64,000 nt of DNA from Shewanella baltica. Lineage in GTDB: Bacteria > Pseudomonadota > Gammaproteobacteria > Enterobacterales > Shewanellaceae. Of this stretch, positions 60,347-64,000 are shown in pieces (position 1 is the stretch's first letter; each line of letters starts with the position of its first letter). The position numbers were made by a program, and so were the translations under genes. Below the pieces are notes generated by a model. The model did not search any database. It saw nothing but the letters and a program-made list of their open reading frames with translations, and was not told the origin of the DNA. Location: NCBI RefSeq assembly GCF_900456975.1, contig NZ_UGYM01000002.1, forward strand, positions 3,100,001 through 3,164,000, given 5' to 3'.

Positions 60347-61717
60347 CTACAGATACAGGAGGGTCGCCATACCTAAGAAAGTAAAGAAGCCCACCACATC
60401 CGTCACTGTGGTTAAGATCACTGAACCCGACAGCGCCGCATCTTGATTAAACTTCTGCAGCACCATAGGCACGACCACGCCAGCAATTGCCGCCACGGCC
60501 ATGTTGATCAAAATTGCACAGCCAATCACTATGCCTATGGTCGCTTCACCGAACCACCAGCCAGAGACTAAACCTATGACTATCGCCCACAAAAATCCGT
60601 TAACTATGCCAATACCGAGTTCGTTCTTCATTAACGAAAACAAGTTACCCGCTGAAATCTGTCCCATAGCCATGCCGCGGATCATCAGCGTCAACGACTG
60701 ACTACCCGCAATGCCGCCCATAGAAGCCACAATCGGCATCAATACCGCTAACGCGACCACTTGGGATAGCACATTTTCAAATAAGCCAATCGTCGCCGAA
60801 GCGAGGAAAGCCGTCAGTAAATTGATCCCGAGCCACACAGCGCGGCGCTGGGCGCCTTTCATAATCGGCGCGAACAAGTCGTCGGACTCATCCATACCCG
60901 CAGTTGCCATCAACTGCGCTTCATAATGCTCACGTACTAAAGCGGTCGCGGTTCGCAGCGTCACGCGACCAATTAACTCTCCAGACTCATCGATCACAGG
61001 CAATTCGATTTCGCGGCTGTGCTCTATCGCTTCGGCCGCTTCCAATAAACTCGTGTCAGCGGATAACGCACGGCTATCCTCGGACAAGAGTGAAATCAAT
61101 AACTCATCGGGATTATGTTTAAAAATGTCATACCGACGCACTGTGCCTTGATACTTATCCTGATCATCAACGATAAACAAATTGTCGTTACAATCGAGTT
61201 CGATACGGCGGAAAAAGCGCTGTGCCTGCGCAACGCTCGCCTTATCACTGAGCACCAACATTTGATGATCGGTATAACGGCCGATTTCATTCTCAGAGTA
61301 CTGATCGTAGAGTTCGAATCGTTGTCGCTGACGCTCGCCCATCTGAGCCAAGGCGCGATCGGTAAAACTTTCAGGGAGATAATCACTCCACTCAATTAAA
61401 TCTTCTGGGCTTAACTGGGCAAATAGCAAGTCCACTTCATTGTCGGGCATCCGTTTGAGGATCCCCATGCGCGGATCGGCACGCATTAAGCTCAACACTG
61501 TCACTCGGTCAGCAAATTCAACTTGCTGCCAACGCTCGTAACGCTCATCCAAGGGCAAGGATTCAAGCGCTAAGGCTATGGTTCCAGGTTCTGAGTCATT
61601 CAAAATTTCGCTAAACACTTCAGCCTGTTCTTCGCCTTCAACTTCAGTGAGTTGTTGAACAACCTGCCCCACGTCAGCTTGCATGTTTGTTTCGTATTCT
61701 GCGTCATTTTCTGTCAC
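60347..61717 (-). CDS. mgtE: MgtE-family magnesium transporter
   Basis: 456 residues from GTG 61717 (AAAAGGG upstream); the open frame to 61804 would add an unlikely extension. The MgtE N-domain (superhelix, to about 130), a pair of CBS domains (about 135-260) and a five-helix channel domain with the conserved PIVASMGGIAGSQSLTLMIRGMAMG are all present. The usual length is about 450 residues, so it is complete. It transports Mg2+ across the inner membrane and is gated by cytosolic Mg2+ bound to the CBS/N domains. Confidence 0.92.
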   Translation of the reverse strand: MTENDAEYETNMQADVGQVVQQLTEVEGEEQAEVFSEILNDSEPGTIALALESLPLDERYERWQQVEFADRVTVLSLMRADPRMGILKRMPDNEVDLLFAQLSPEDLIEWSDYLPESFTDRALAQMGERQRQRFELYDQYSENEIGRYTDHQMLVLSDKASVAQAQRFFRRIELDCNDNLFIVDDQDKYQGTVRRYDIFKHNPDELLISLLSEDSRALSADTSLLEAAEAIEHSREIELPVIDESGELIGRVTLRTATALVREHYEAQLMATAGMDESDDLFAPIMKGAQRRAVWLGINLLTAFLASATIGLFENVLSQVVALAVLMPIVASMGGIAGSQSLTLMIRGMAMGQISAGNLFSLMKNELGIGIVNGFLWAIVIGLVSGWWFGEATIGIVIGCAILINMAVAAIAGVVVPMVLQKFNQDAALSGSVILTTVTDVVGFFTFLGMATLLYL

Positions 61718-61868
61718 ACAGATGCCCTTTTCTTTAGCTACAAAATTGCTGTAACTATATTGATAATTAAGTAAATTAGCAAACCCACAAAATGAATTGC
61801 GCACAACTATATTGCTGAAAATTATTTTTAGGTTTATGCTGTTTGACTAAGATCCTATGGAGGTGAAC

Positions 61869-62354
61869 ATGACTACGAATATATACAGCCAATCAGCGAC
61901 AGACATTCAAGGCAACACAGTAAGTTTAGAGCAGTATCGAGGCAAAGTACTCTTGATCGTCAACACCGCCAGTGAATGTGGATTTACACCGCAATACAAG
62001 GGATTAGAAGCGTTATATCAAGAATACAAAGATCAAGGATTAGTAATTTTGGGCTTTCCTTGCAATCAATTTGGCGCCCAAGAAAAAGCCGATGAGCAAG
62101 GTATTCAAGCCTTTTGTGAATTGAATTTTGGCGTGACGTTTCCGCTATTTTCTAAAATAGAAGTGAATGGCGAACATACCCATCCACTTTATCAATACCT
62201 TAAGAAAGCTGCTCCCGGTGTATTAGGTACTCAAGGTATCAAATGGAATTTCACCAAATTTTTAGTTAATCGCCAAGGCGAAGCGATTGAACGATTTGCA
62301 TCGACCACGAAACCCGAAGCATTAGAAAGTAAAATTGCCGCTTTACTAAAATAA
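61869..62354 (+). CDS. Glutathione peroxidase (cysteine type)
   Basis: 161 residues from ATG 61869, 5 nt after GGAGG. The peroxidatic residue is Cys37 ([16 protein letters not shown], codon TGT), not selenocysteine. The catalytic Gln and Trp are in [11 protein letters not shown] and KWNFTKF. It reduces hydrogen peroxide or lipid hydroperoxides with thioredoxin or glutathione. It is followed by the candidate small RNA region. Confidence 0.92.
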
Positions 62355-62469
62355 TTTACTCGCTATCTATTTGAAATTTTGCGTTTTATAAAAATTTAGA
62401 TTTATTTTAACTTTTTTATGGAACTTTAACCGTACAAGCCCCCTCAAATGTATTGAACAGTGAATGTCT

Positions 62470-62559
62470 TTTTCATGTTCATCATCTCCCTGGGGCTTCT
62501 AGCGCGGCCCCCTTGACCTAGGAATAGGTCACTAGGCAACCATTGGGTTGCCTTTTTTT
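62470..62559 (+). ncRNA. Candidate small RNA 1 (boundaries approximate)
   Basis: Starts near the pyrimidine-rich GTTCATCATCTCCC (62477-62490), has two hairpins (GGGGC/GCCCC; TGACCTA-GGAA-TAGGTCA, 62514-62531) and ends in a terminator GGCAACC-ATTG-GGTTGCC (62535-62552) with seven T. No open reading frame fits. The 5' end is not defined by a clear promoter. Confidence 0.55.
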
Positions 62560-62631
62560 ATCACAATGATTTATATGTAAAATAAATGTAATGTCTCATT
62601 TCAACTGCTTTTTATCTCTCAGAAATTCTTT

Positions 62632-62926
62632 TTTAAACTTTTTGGTGTTTTTTTGCGATATCGATGAACTTAATTAAAAATGGCGACTCTGAGTATAGGT
62701 AAGGATTAACGGATAAGATTAAATGCACCTTGAGAATGAAATATGTGAAGACGCAGTTTCATCTACTCAAATGACACAGTTTCTGTTTTATCGCATTGAG
62801 TCTAATTAGTTGGTCGTTCATCATCATCTCCCTTTTGGGACACAATAGAAAACACGCTAGCGCACTGAATTCTACTTGTATCCCGCACTGATTTCCTTGT
62901 GGCAACCTTAGGTTGCCATTTTTTTT
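62632..62926. repeat. Direct repeat copy A (295 bp; 444-bp tandem spacing)
   Basis: About 97% identical without net gaps to 63076-63370, at a constant offset of 444 bp. The repeat includes the whole of candidate RNA 2 and its upstream 180 bp. Confidence 0.95.
62811..62926 (+). ncRNA. Candidate small RNA 2
   Basis: Contains GTTCATCATCATCTCCC (62816-62832), a TCCC-TTTT-GGGA mini-hairpin, and the terminator GGCAACC-TTA-GGTTGCC (62901-62917) followed by ATTTTTTTT. Same layout as RNA 1 and RNA 3. Confidence 0.6.
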
Positions 62927-63075
62927 GCTCAAATTTCAACAAGCGCTAACGCTAGCTCATAGATTAATAAACTGACACGCTTTTAATTTTTATCGCTATG
63001 ATTTTAATGTAAAACAAATGTAGCACTTAAGTGTGAGCACTCAATATTTACCAGAAAAATACCCCAGAAAATATT

Positions 63076-63370
63076 TTTAAACTTTTTGGGATTTTTTTCT
63101 GATATCGGTGAACTTAATTAAAAATGGCGACTCTGAGTATAGGTAAGGATTAACGGATAAGATTAAATGCACCTTGAGAATGAAATATGTGAAGTCGCAG
63201 TTTCATCTACTCAAATGACACAGTTTCTGTTTTATCGCATTGAGTCTAATTAGTTGGTCGTTCATCATCATCTCCCTTTTGGGACACAATAGAAAACACG
63301 CTAGCGCACTGAGTTCTATTTGTATCCCGCACTGATTTCCTTGTGGCAACCTTAGGTTGCCATTTTTTTG
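63076..63370. repeat. Direct repeat copy B
   Basis: See copy A at 62632. The few differences include GAAGACGC versus GAAGTCGC and GAATTCTACTTG versus GAGTTCTATTTG. Confidence 0.95.
63255..63370 (+). ncRNA. Candidate small RNA 3
   Basis: Near-identical to RNA 2: seed GTTCATCATCATCTCCC at 63260-63276, terminator GGCAACC-TTA-GGTTGCC at 63345-63361 with seven T after it. Confidence 0.6.
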
Positions 63371-63415
63371 CCTAAATTTCTATACGCACCTAAATCTCTA
63401 TAATCGCCTAAATAT

Positions 63416-64000
63416 CTATAATATTAGTGACTTGTCCAATTGAACTTGAATCGAAGGATGATAACCTGCGCGAGCCTTTGTATAGATATCTTTTAATTCA
63501 GCGTGATATCCCGCGATTTGCAGCTCAGCATAAAGTGGCCGCACAAATTTACCGCGGCCAATACGTACTAGATAAACACTTAATGCCGGCAACACAGGGT
63601 CGTAATGATTGCGAATCGCCACCCTGAACCAATCACAGGCAATTTCCGCATTGGTCGATTGGGTGAATTGGAACATTTCATCCAGATCCATCAGTTGCAC
63701 TTGGCTGACGACTTCAGGCAATTGGGTCAGAAAATACTGCCAATGATGTACTCGCCAATCTTTCACGCTTAATTGGCTCGCGGTCGTTCCCTGTAAAAAA
63801 CACGCCAACGCATCATCGACTTTATCTAAACTCATGGATGTTGGTCCGCAATATCCCTCGGGCAAACCTTCGCCATAAATCCACGTTAGCAGCTCGGCTT
63901 CGGTAATCTTATCTGAGTGTAATAGCAGTAAGGTTTGCTGCGCGTATTCGACAAACACTTCGGTGGTAATCGCCTTAAAGGCAAAATGATCCACATAGTT
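63416..64000 (-). CDS. M1-family aminopeptidase (leukotriene-A4-hydrolase-like), C-terminal part
   Basis: The frame runs out of the window at 64000, so this is the 3' part (194 visible residues) of a longer gene. The visible segment is an armadillo-like helical C-terminal domain with ITTEVFVEYAQQTLL near the start, WIYGEGLPEGYCGPTS, and ARAGYHPSIQVQLDK near the end. This layout is that of LTA4-hydrolase-type M1 aminopeptidases. The zinc motif HExxH would lie upstream, outside the window. Confidence 0.82.
   Translation of the reverse strand, partial: NYVDHFAFKAITTEVFVEYAQQTLLLLHSDKITEAELLTWIYGEGLPEGYCGPTSMSLDKVDDALACFLQGTTASQLSVKDWRVHHWQYFLTQLPEVVSQVQLMDLDEMFQFTQSTNAEIACDWFRVAIRNHYDPVLPALSVYLVRIGRGKFVRPLYAELQIAGYHAELKDIYTKARAGYHPSIQVQLDKSLIL

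Follow-up and report, generated by a model that had tools for sequence, protein, structure and literature searches.

The gap between the glutathione peroxidase gene gpx and an M1 family aminopeptidase gene (domains PF01433/PF09127) of Shewanella baltica carries three related units, all on the plus strand and spanning 62455-63372 of the window, that is, of the whole stretch of 64,000 nucleotides analysed. From the sequence evidence we read these units as sigma-E type small-RNA copies which are predicted to block outer-membrane protein mRNAs, with tsx in first place, and we put the probability of this reading at roughly three in four. Concerning its parts, it appears very likely that the small-RNA family is real, under selection, spread across the genus and equipped with sigma-E type promoters, and likely that its main work is to block the translation of tsx and further envelope mRNAs. 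Genus-wide conservation, stem covariation, the sigma-E type promoters and synteny strongly support the assignment of the units as paralogous small RNAs.

A preliminary description of this DNA had claimed that the 1-kb gap has no protein gene and that units 2 and 3 are near-identical. Indeed, no protein gene is apparent, as the listed open reading frames (at least 30 aa) reach 57 aa at most, and units 2 and 3 form a 300-nt direct repeat with 97% identity and a spacing of 444 bp. The pyrimidine stretch and the terminator which it assigned to each unit are likewise found, TCATCATCTCCCT being present in all three units and a scan of 62000-63800 returning one GGCAACC/GGTTGCC terminator with a T run per unit; these are the only three sites in that interval, compared to a mean of 1.3 (sd 1.1) in shuffles. 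Each unit comprises TTCATCATCTCCC, a CTAGCGC-bearing hairpin and the GGCAACC/GGTTGCC terminator, and the folding z-scores of units 1, 2 and 3 are -4.4, -2.4 and -2.2, respectively. The features of the locus are the following:

61869-62354, plus strand: left neighbour, glutathione peroxidase gene gpx (PF00255), synteny marker.
62420-62448, plus strand: unit 1 sigma-E type promoter, GGAACTT (62420-62426) and TCAAA (62444-62448), from sequence and a pattern scan with shuffles.
62455-62560, plus strand: unit 1 small-RNA candidate of the short-leader class, ending in the terminator at 62534-62560.
62478-62490, plus strand: unit 1 predicted seed TTCATCATCTCCC, from the alignment of units.
62492-62511, plus strand: unit 1 hairpin, its loop holding the conserved CTAGCGC (62499-62505), from fold and alignment.
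62514-62531, plus strand: unit 1 second hairpin, with a GGAA loop, from the fold.
62666-62692, plus strand: unit 2 sigma-E type promoter, GAACTT (62666-62671) and TCTGA (62688-62692), from sequence and a pattern scan.
62698-62927, plus strand: whole predicted transcript of unit 2, about 230 nt, from promoter position, terminator and fold.
62817-62832, plus strand: unit 2 predicted seed TTCATCATCATCTCCC, from alignment and covariance model.
62857-62863, plus strand: unit 2 hairpin tip CTAGCGC on a covarying stem, from the covariation test.
62899-62927, plus strand: unit 2 terminator, from the terminator scan.
63110-63136, plus strand: unit 3 sigma-E type promoter, GAACTT (63110-63115) and TCTGA (63132-63136), from sequence and a pattern scan.
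63142-63370, plus strand: whole predicted transcript of unit 3, about 229 nt, duplicating unit 2 at 97% identity.
63261-63276, plus strand: unit 3 predicted seed TTCATCATCATCTCCC, from repeat, covariance model and fold.
63301-63307, plus strand: unit 3 hairpin tip CTAGCGC.
63343-63370, plus strand: unit 3 terminator, from the terminator scan.
63416-64000, minus strand: right neighbour, C-terminal part of the M1 family aminopeptidase gene (PF09127), synteny marker.

Two earlier statements on the units need to be revised in part. The GGAA-loop hairpin said to be particular to unit 1 is present, but its loop is not conserved (GTAA in locus L006), and the loop was ruled out as a fixed protein site since it varies among relatives. 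Also, the proposed transcript length of 100-120 nt does not apply to units 2 and 3: their promoters lie about 155 nt upstream of the seed, and the predicted primary transcripts are therefore about 230 nt long, the predicted order in unit 2 being folded leader, seed, hairpin and terminator.

The assignment of the promoters as sigma-E type results from a pattern analysis of 87 units, which are all the distinct ones in the fetched loci that combine a terminator with a strict seed and have 300 nt of upstream sequence. The strict pattern, GAACT-N14-18-TC(T/A)(G/A)A within 300 nt upstream of the unit, is found in 56 of these (dinucleotide shuffles: mean 0.62, max 2) and in 34 of 59 dissimilar upstream sequences (mean 0.58, max 3). 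The pattern was widened post hoc, after the misses of the strict one showed variants (GAACC, TCATA), and in this form it matches 87/87 units and 59/59 dissimilar upstreams, the shuffles giving means of 2.20 (max 6) and 1.50 (max 3), respectively. As the widening was post hoc, 60 further units without the strict seed, which had not been used for it, were tested: 49 have the strict pattern (shuffles 0.5) and 55 the widened one (1.3), the five misses having GAACT plus a TCCAA. The distance from the -35 element to the seed separates two main classes, a short-leader one with 50-61 nt in 24 of the 87 units (58 nt in unit 1) and a long-leader one with 139-218 nt in 54 (155 nt in units 2 and 3), and nine units fall between them. 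The host genome encodes RpoE (334 bits), and its own rpoE promoter, GAACTTTTTCAAAGTACGCGAGTCTAC, equals that listed for rpoE (SO_1342) of S. oneidensis MR-1, the start of which has been mapped by primer extension (PMC4336711); the MR-1 RpoE promoters gathered in Table 1 of that paper include no small RNA. Other candidate signals were rejected: sigma-70 promoters amount to 3 sites in the scan compared to 5.5 in shuffles, the GTCTAA that directly precedes seeds 2 and 3 varies (GTCGAA in loci L005, L007 and L008), and a sigma-54 promoter reading, from a look by eye near units 2 and 3 only, was dropped.

The structure of the RNA is under selection, and the covariation of its stem is direct evidence for this. 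The seven base pairs beneath the GCUAGCGC tip were scored in 49 distinct hairpin tips of the long type: 82% of cells are paired, compared to 49% when 3' arms are exchanged between sequences (sd 3%, max 60% of 1000) and to 27-43% when the register is slid, and as many as six pair types occur per position. The tip itself is conserved, CUAGCGC standing there in 81 of the 87 distinct units, in both leader classes and across Shewanella. Conservation of the seed was analysed in 146 distinct units collected by tip and terminator with no seed filter. UCAUCAU is present in 145 of these and a CCC follows UCAUCA by at most 9 nt in 135, the exact spacing of the window (the strict seed) being kept in only 81; this spacing varies in relatives, with UUCAUCAUUCUCCC and UUCAUCAUCAUUCCC as common variants. 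In the predicted folds the seed part CAUCAUCUCCC has a mean unpaired probability of 0.91 in unit 1 and 0.84 in unit 2, and, setting the predicted transcript start 5 nt after the -10 element, pairing is lower in the seed than over the RNA as a whole in 58 of the 59 transcripts predicted (unpaired 0.72 vs 0.43). Ten window-type long leaders fold back on themselves with 11-19 pairs, compared to 0.3-2.2 with shuffled leaders, and in the predicted fold of such transcripts the seed is left between two helices; among long leaders overall, the leader helix is above shuffles in only 17 of 36. Some long leaders (loci L010, L011, L056 and L092) contain extra UCAUCA repeats, e.g. CUUCAUCACGG and CCUCAUCAGCC, which could be additional pairing sites.

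The conserved stretch might instead be the start of small proteins encoded on the minus strand (GGGAG-ATGATGATG), as units 2 and 3 do have a 22-codon open reading frame with a Shine-Dalgarno-like start in that orientation. However, across the 87 units the length of this frame varies from 4 to 69 codons and is below 15 in 60 of them, an instability for which it was rejected, and promoters, covariation and terminators are all on the plus strand, so that we consider a coding origin extremely improbable.

The units are a property of the genus. A DNA search gives matches in 25 of 60 genomes (own included), some of them through the terminator alone, and a pattern scan of the named genomes yields 31 stretches, 30 from Shewanella and an archaeal one which was dropped and taken for chance. 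The custom covariance model put forward in the preliminary description was built from 26 units, several of them from the searched genomes, the base pairs specified in it being those of the terminator stem only, and matches 111 of 117 Shewanella genomes at E<=0.01, the best E of each matching genome being <=1.9e-5 and the number of matches ranging from 1 to 9 per genome. Six of the 117 (G018, G080, G083, G086, G089 and G112) have no match with this model, and in genome G004 a stretch of 2.3 kb contains seven consecutive units. In a sample of 295 genomes evenly drawn from the order, 46 match, of which 21 are Shewanella (own included; best E from 1.9e-17 to 1.7e-5) and 25 are others; outside the genus nothing in this sample scores better than E 3.7e-4, several of these matches covering the 3' part of the model only, and the one listed genome from a different genus within the family gives no model match. 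Unit 1 scores 62.8 bits (E 5.1e-10) with the model, which was built partly from it. A fourth unit is detected beyond the window, at genome position 3165795-3165888 (48.1 bits, E 6.9e-7); it is more diverged and has its own GAACTA...GTCAGA promoter, a CTAGCGC tip and a terminator.

Synteny, another of the earlier proposals, holds in other Shewanella, gpx having the same orientation as the units in 40 of 48 loci and the peptidase the opposite one in 39, in a set where some loci come from one genome and some are too short to show gpx or the peptidase. At least two units occur in 48 of 60 loci with tip-bearing units. An array of this kind could be a decaying or neutral repeat, namely terminators duplicated after gpx and having no function in trans, which would agree with the recent 97% duplicate, with the 1-9 matches per genome and with the usual position near gpx. 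Yet promoter, UCAUCAU, covarying stem and terminator are kept while other positions diverge, and neutrality is thereby rendered very improbable; a selected small-RNA family is the reading retained in what follows.

Regarding the targets, the exact complement GGGAGATGATG was rejected, since three of its four occurrences in the genome are the units themselves and the fourth is not at the start of a gene, from which it follows that pairing with targets would be imperfect. Admitting wobble and at most two mismatches, the seed complement is found at 101 places in the whole genome (units included), compared to 42 for the mirrored pattern; of these, 30 loci plus 40 further regions were examined. The matches at gene starts include Tsx (PF03502), OmpW (PF03922), a TonB receptor (PF07715) and three lipoproteins, one with an MtrC/MtrF-like domain, one collagen-like and one unnamed, and also COX1, a phage protein and others. 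The most consistent of these is tsx, which was found in 22 of the 27 Shewanella genomes searched and whose start was read in 21 (G019, in pieces, was left out). In all 21 (19 distinct sequences) the start is GGGGTTG-ATGATGAA, and GGGGTTGATGATGAA forms with the seed a duplex of -19.7 to -20.0 kcal/mol, whereas five tsx copies from four genomes outside Shewanella all lack GGGGTTG and reach -5.8 to -12.4 over a wider interval; the E. coli tsx start has no GGGGTTG-type complementary site. The earlier proposal that the seed covers a Shine-Dalgarno sequence and start codon is therefore sustained for tsx, with the same complementary site in 21/21, but not as an exact complement, which lies at no gene start. 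The 12-mer GGGGTTGATGAT is found exactly only twice in the genome, once at tsx and once, at genome positions 628556-628567, directly before a gene for a secreted protein with a lamin-tail domain (nuclease-like).

The remaining candidates are less uniform. The ompW duplex amounts to -18.0 to -20.9 in the species group of the window and is weaker in most others (down to -5.6; -13.8 at locus L232), and with longer seed segments unit 2 reaches -22.0 with tsx and -24.6 with ompW, and unit 1 -19.4 and -17.4. A ranking by duplex energy of 967 called genes, from a spread sample of the genome, gives secreted proteins a slight lead only (p 0.06; z 2.5 in a second analysis), which does not go beyond 150 control seeds keeping the AUCAUC core: the z is reached by 16 of the 150, and the 11 secreted proteins within the top 40 of the 967 by 44. 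Most of the apparent signal-peptide bias is thus explained by AUGAUG-type starts, and the case for targets rests on tsx. OmpW, the TonB receptor and outer-membrane cytochromes are weaker target candidates. Fifth among the 967 sampled genes is the start of an outer-membrane cytochrome gene (MMNAQTTKIALLLAASAV..., duplex -18.7), which we take to be MtrC-like.

How far the tsx site reflects pairing can be judged from its upstream columns. At about 62-100% protein identity, positions -15 to -1 of tsx have 8 invariant columns over 19 distinct sequences, whereas the control gpx has none over 26 sequences from a set that differs in part. In 13 closer gpx sequences (at least 80% identity) 5 of the 15 columns are invariant, so that the usual constraint on a ribosome-binding site accounts for part of the tsx signal. 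This would fit sigma-E small RNAs which act mainly by another route, as a protein or RNA sponge or by pairing through the CUAGCGC tip, the tsx match being then a constrained ribosome-binding site; the conservation of the tip, the secreted-protein enrichment not exceeding controls, and genome G018, in which the tsx site is present and the family has no match, go in the same direction. However, UCAUCAU is as conserved as the tip in the units collected by tip and terminator and is predicted to be unpaired, the contrast in invariant columns between tsx and gpx stands at the wider range of identities, and none of the five tsx copies from other genera has the site. We consider a different main route improbable, and a seed acting on tsx remains the preferred reading.

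According to this preferred reading, RpoE would transcribe the units under envelope stress, and the UCAUCAUC(U)CCC segment would pair with the ribosome-binding site and start codons of target mRNAs, probably with the help of Hfq. By repressing tsx, OmpW and further envelope mRNAs, the units would slow down the production of membrane proteins, and that there are several copies may be due to dosage or to a division of labour. The Hfq-related features visible in the units are the terminator and T run only; an hfq mutant of S. oneidensis has been described (PMC3575234). A broader proposal, which we regard as rather doubtful, is that in the tandem array, with up to seven copies in a row, copy dosage sets how strongly envelope stress shuts down outer-membrane traffic, which would extend over Tsx, OmpW and the outer-membrane cytochromes of the MtrC/OmcA type that serve extracellular electron transfer, the CUAGCGC tip being a second recognition element.

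If the preferred reading is true, the family would be the repressor arm of the sigma-E response in Shewanella, which is a main model in the study of extracellular electron transfer, and the differing copy numbers of the family form a natural series in which the multiplication of sibling small RNAs can be studied. The kind is known, namely sigma-E small RNAs which turn down outer-membrane proteins, and such repressors (MicA, RybB, VrrA) are known as single genes. Among the literature matches listed, the titles and abstract beginnings name neither this family, nor a tandem expansion, a long-leader class or a CUAGCGC tip, nor any sigma-E small-RNA repressor for Shewanella. In S. piezotolerans WP3, 209 small-RNA candidates have been predicted (PMC5471319), and the family may be among them, the individual entries being given in the supplements of that paper.

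The comparison with known systems points to MicA (RF00078), and not to Qrr or OmrA/OmrB, as the closest functional relative; from the relation to the latter drawn in the preliminary description, what stands is that the units are paralogous small RNAs. The E. coli micA promoter is GAACT-N17-TCTGAGTATA and that of unit 2 GAACT...TCTGAGTATA, of sigma-E type by sequence; the MicA seed TATCATCATCCC compares to TTCATCATC(AT)CCC in Shewanella (TTCATCATCATCTCCC in unit 2), the UCAUCAUCCC-type pairing region of MicA being found in the Shewanella units, and the -35 element lies 52 nt from the seed in E. coli micA, a distance within that of the short-leader class. In E. coli, tsx is repressed by MicA (PMC3551931), and OmpW has been reported as MicA-dependent (PMC4618604). 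These likenesses in promoter, seed and spacing would be expected also if the units were true, strongly diverged MicA orthologues rather than an independent analogue. Against such descent, the RF00078 model finds none of 36 Shewanella genomes over the gathering cut-off of 41 bits, its best score at family units (23.9 bits, in four units of G028) is below that of chance places in Shewanella, which reach 30.3, and no MicA hit at E<=5 is obtained in the 12 Shewanella loci scanned. Furthermore, E. coli micA is flanked by luxS and gshA, unlike the Shewanella units between gpx and the M1 peptidase, and the latter have an extra covarying hairpin with the CUAGCGC tip and a long-leader class. We thus hold orthology to be unlikely; by analogy of promoter and seed the units would work like MicA, while lying outside RF00078.

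Other sigma-E dependent repressors of outer-membrane protein mRNAs are VrrA and MicV of Vibrio and RybB of enterobacteria, to which the units, having no Rfam match, are likened by their predicted function only. The Rfam covariance search suggested in the preliminary description left the units without any family match: a cmscan of 61500-64000 at E<=5 returned four weak unrelated matches only, and none for the Qrr and OmrA/OmrB families. Like OmrA/OmrB and Qrr, where Omr copies are tandem and Qrr has 4-5 distal copies (PMC4211561), the units occur as several related copies; unlike these, they have sigma-E type promoters and stand in rows of up to seven (G004). VrrA has been named a functional analogue of MicA, and CT_532 of Bordetella pertussis has been proposed as a MicA homologue acting on outer-membrane protein mRNA (PMC12235514). 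By this description CT_532 resembles the Shewanella units as a proposed MicA-type RNA outside enterobacteria, and the overall logic of the Shewanella family would be that of enterobacterial MicA.
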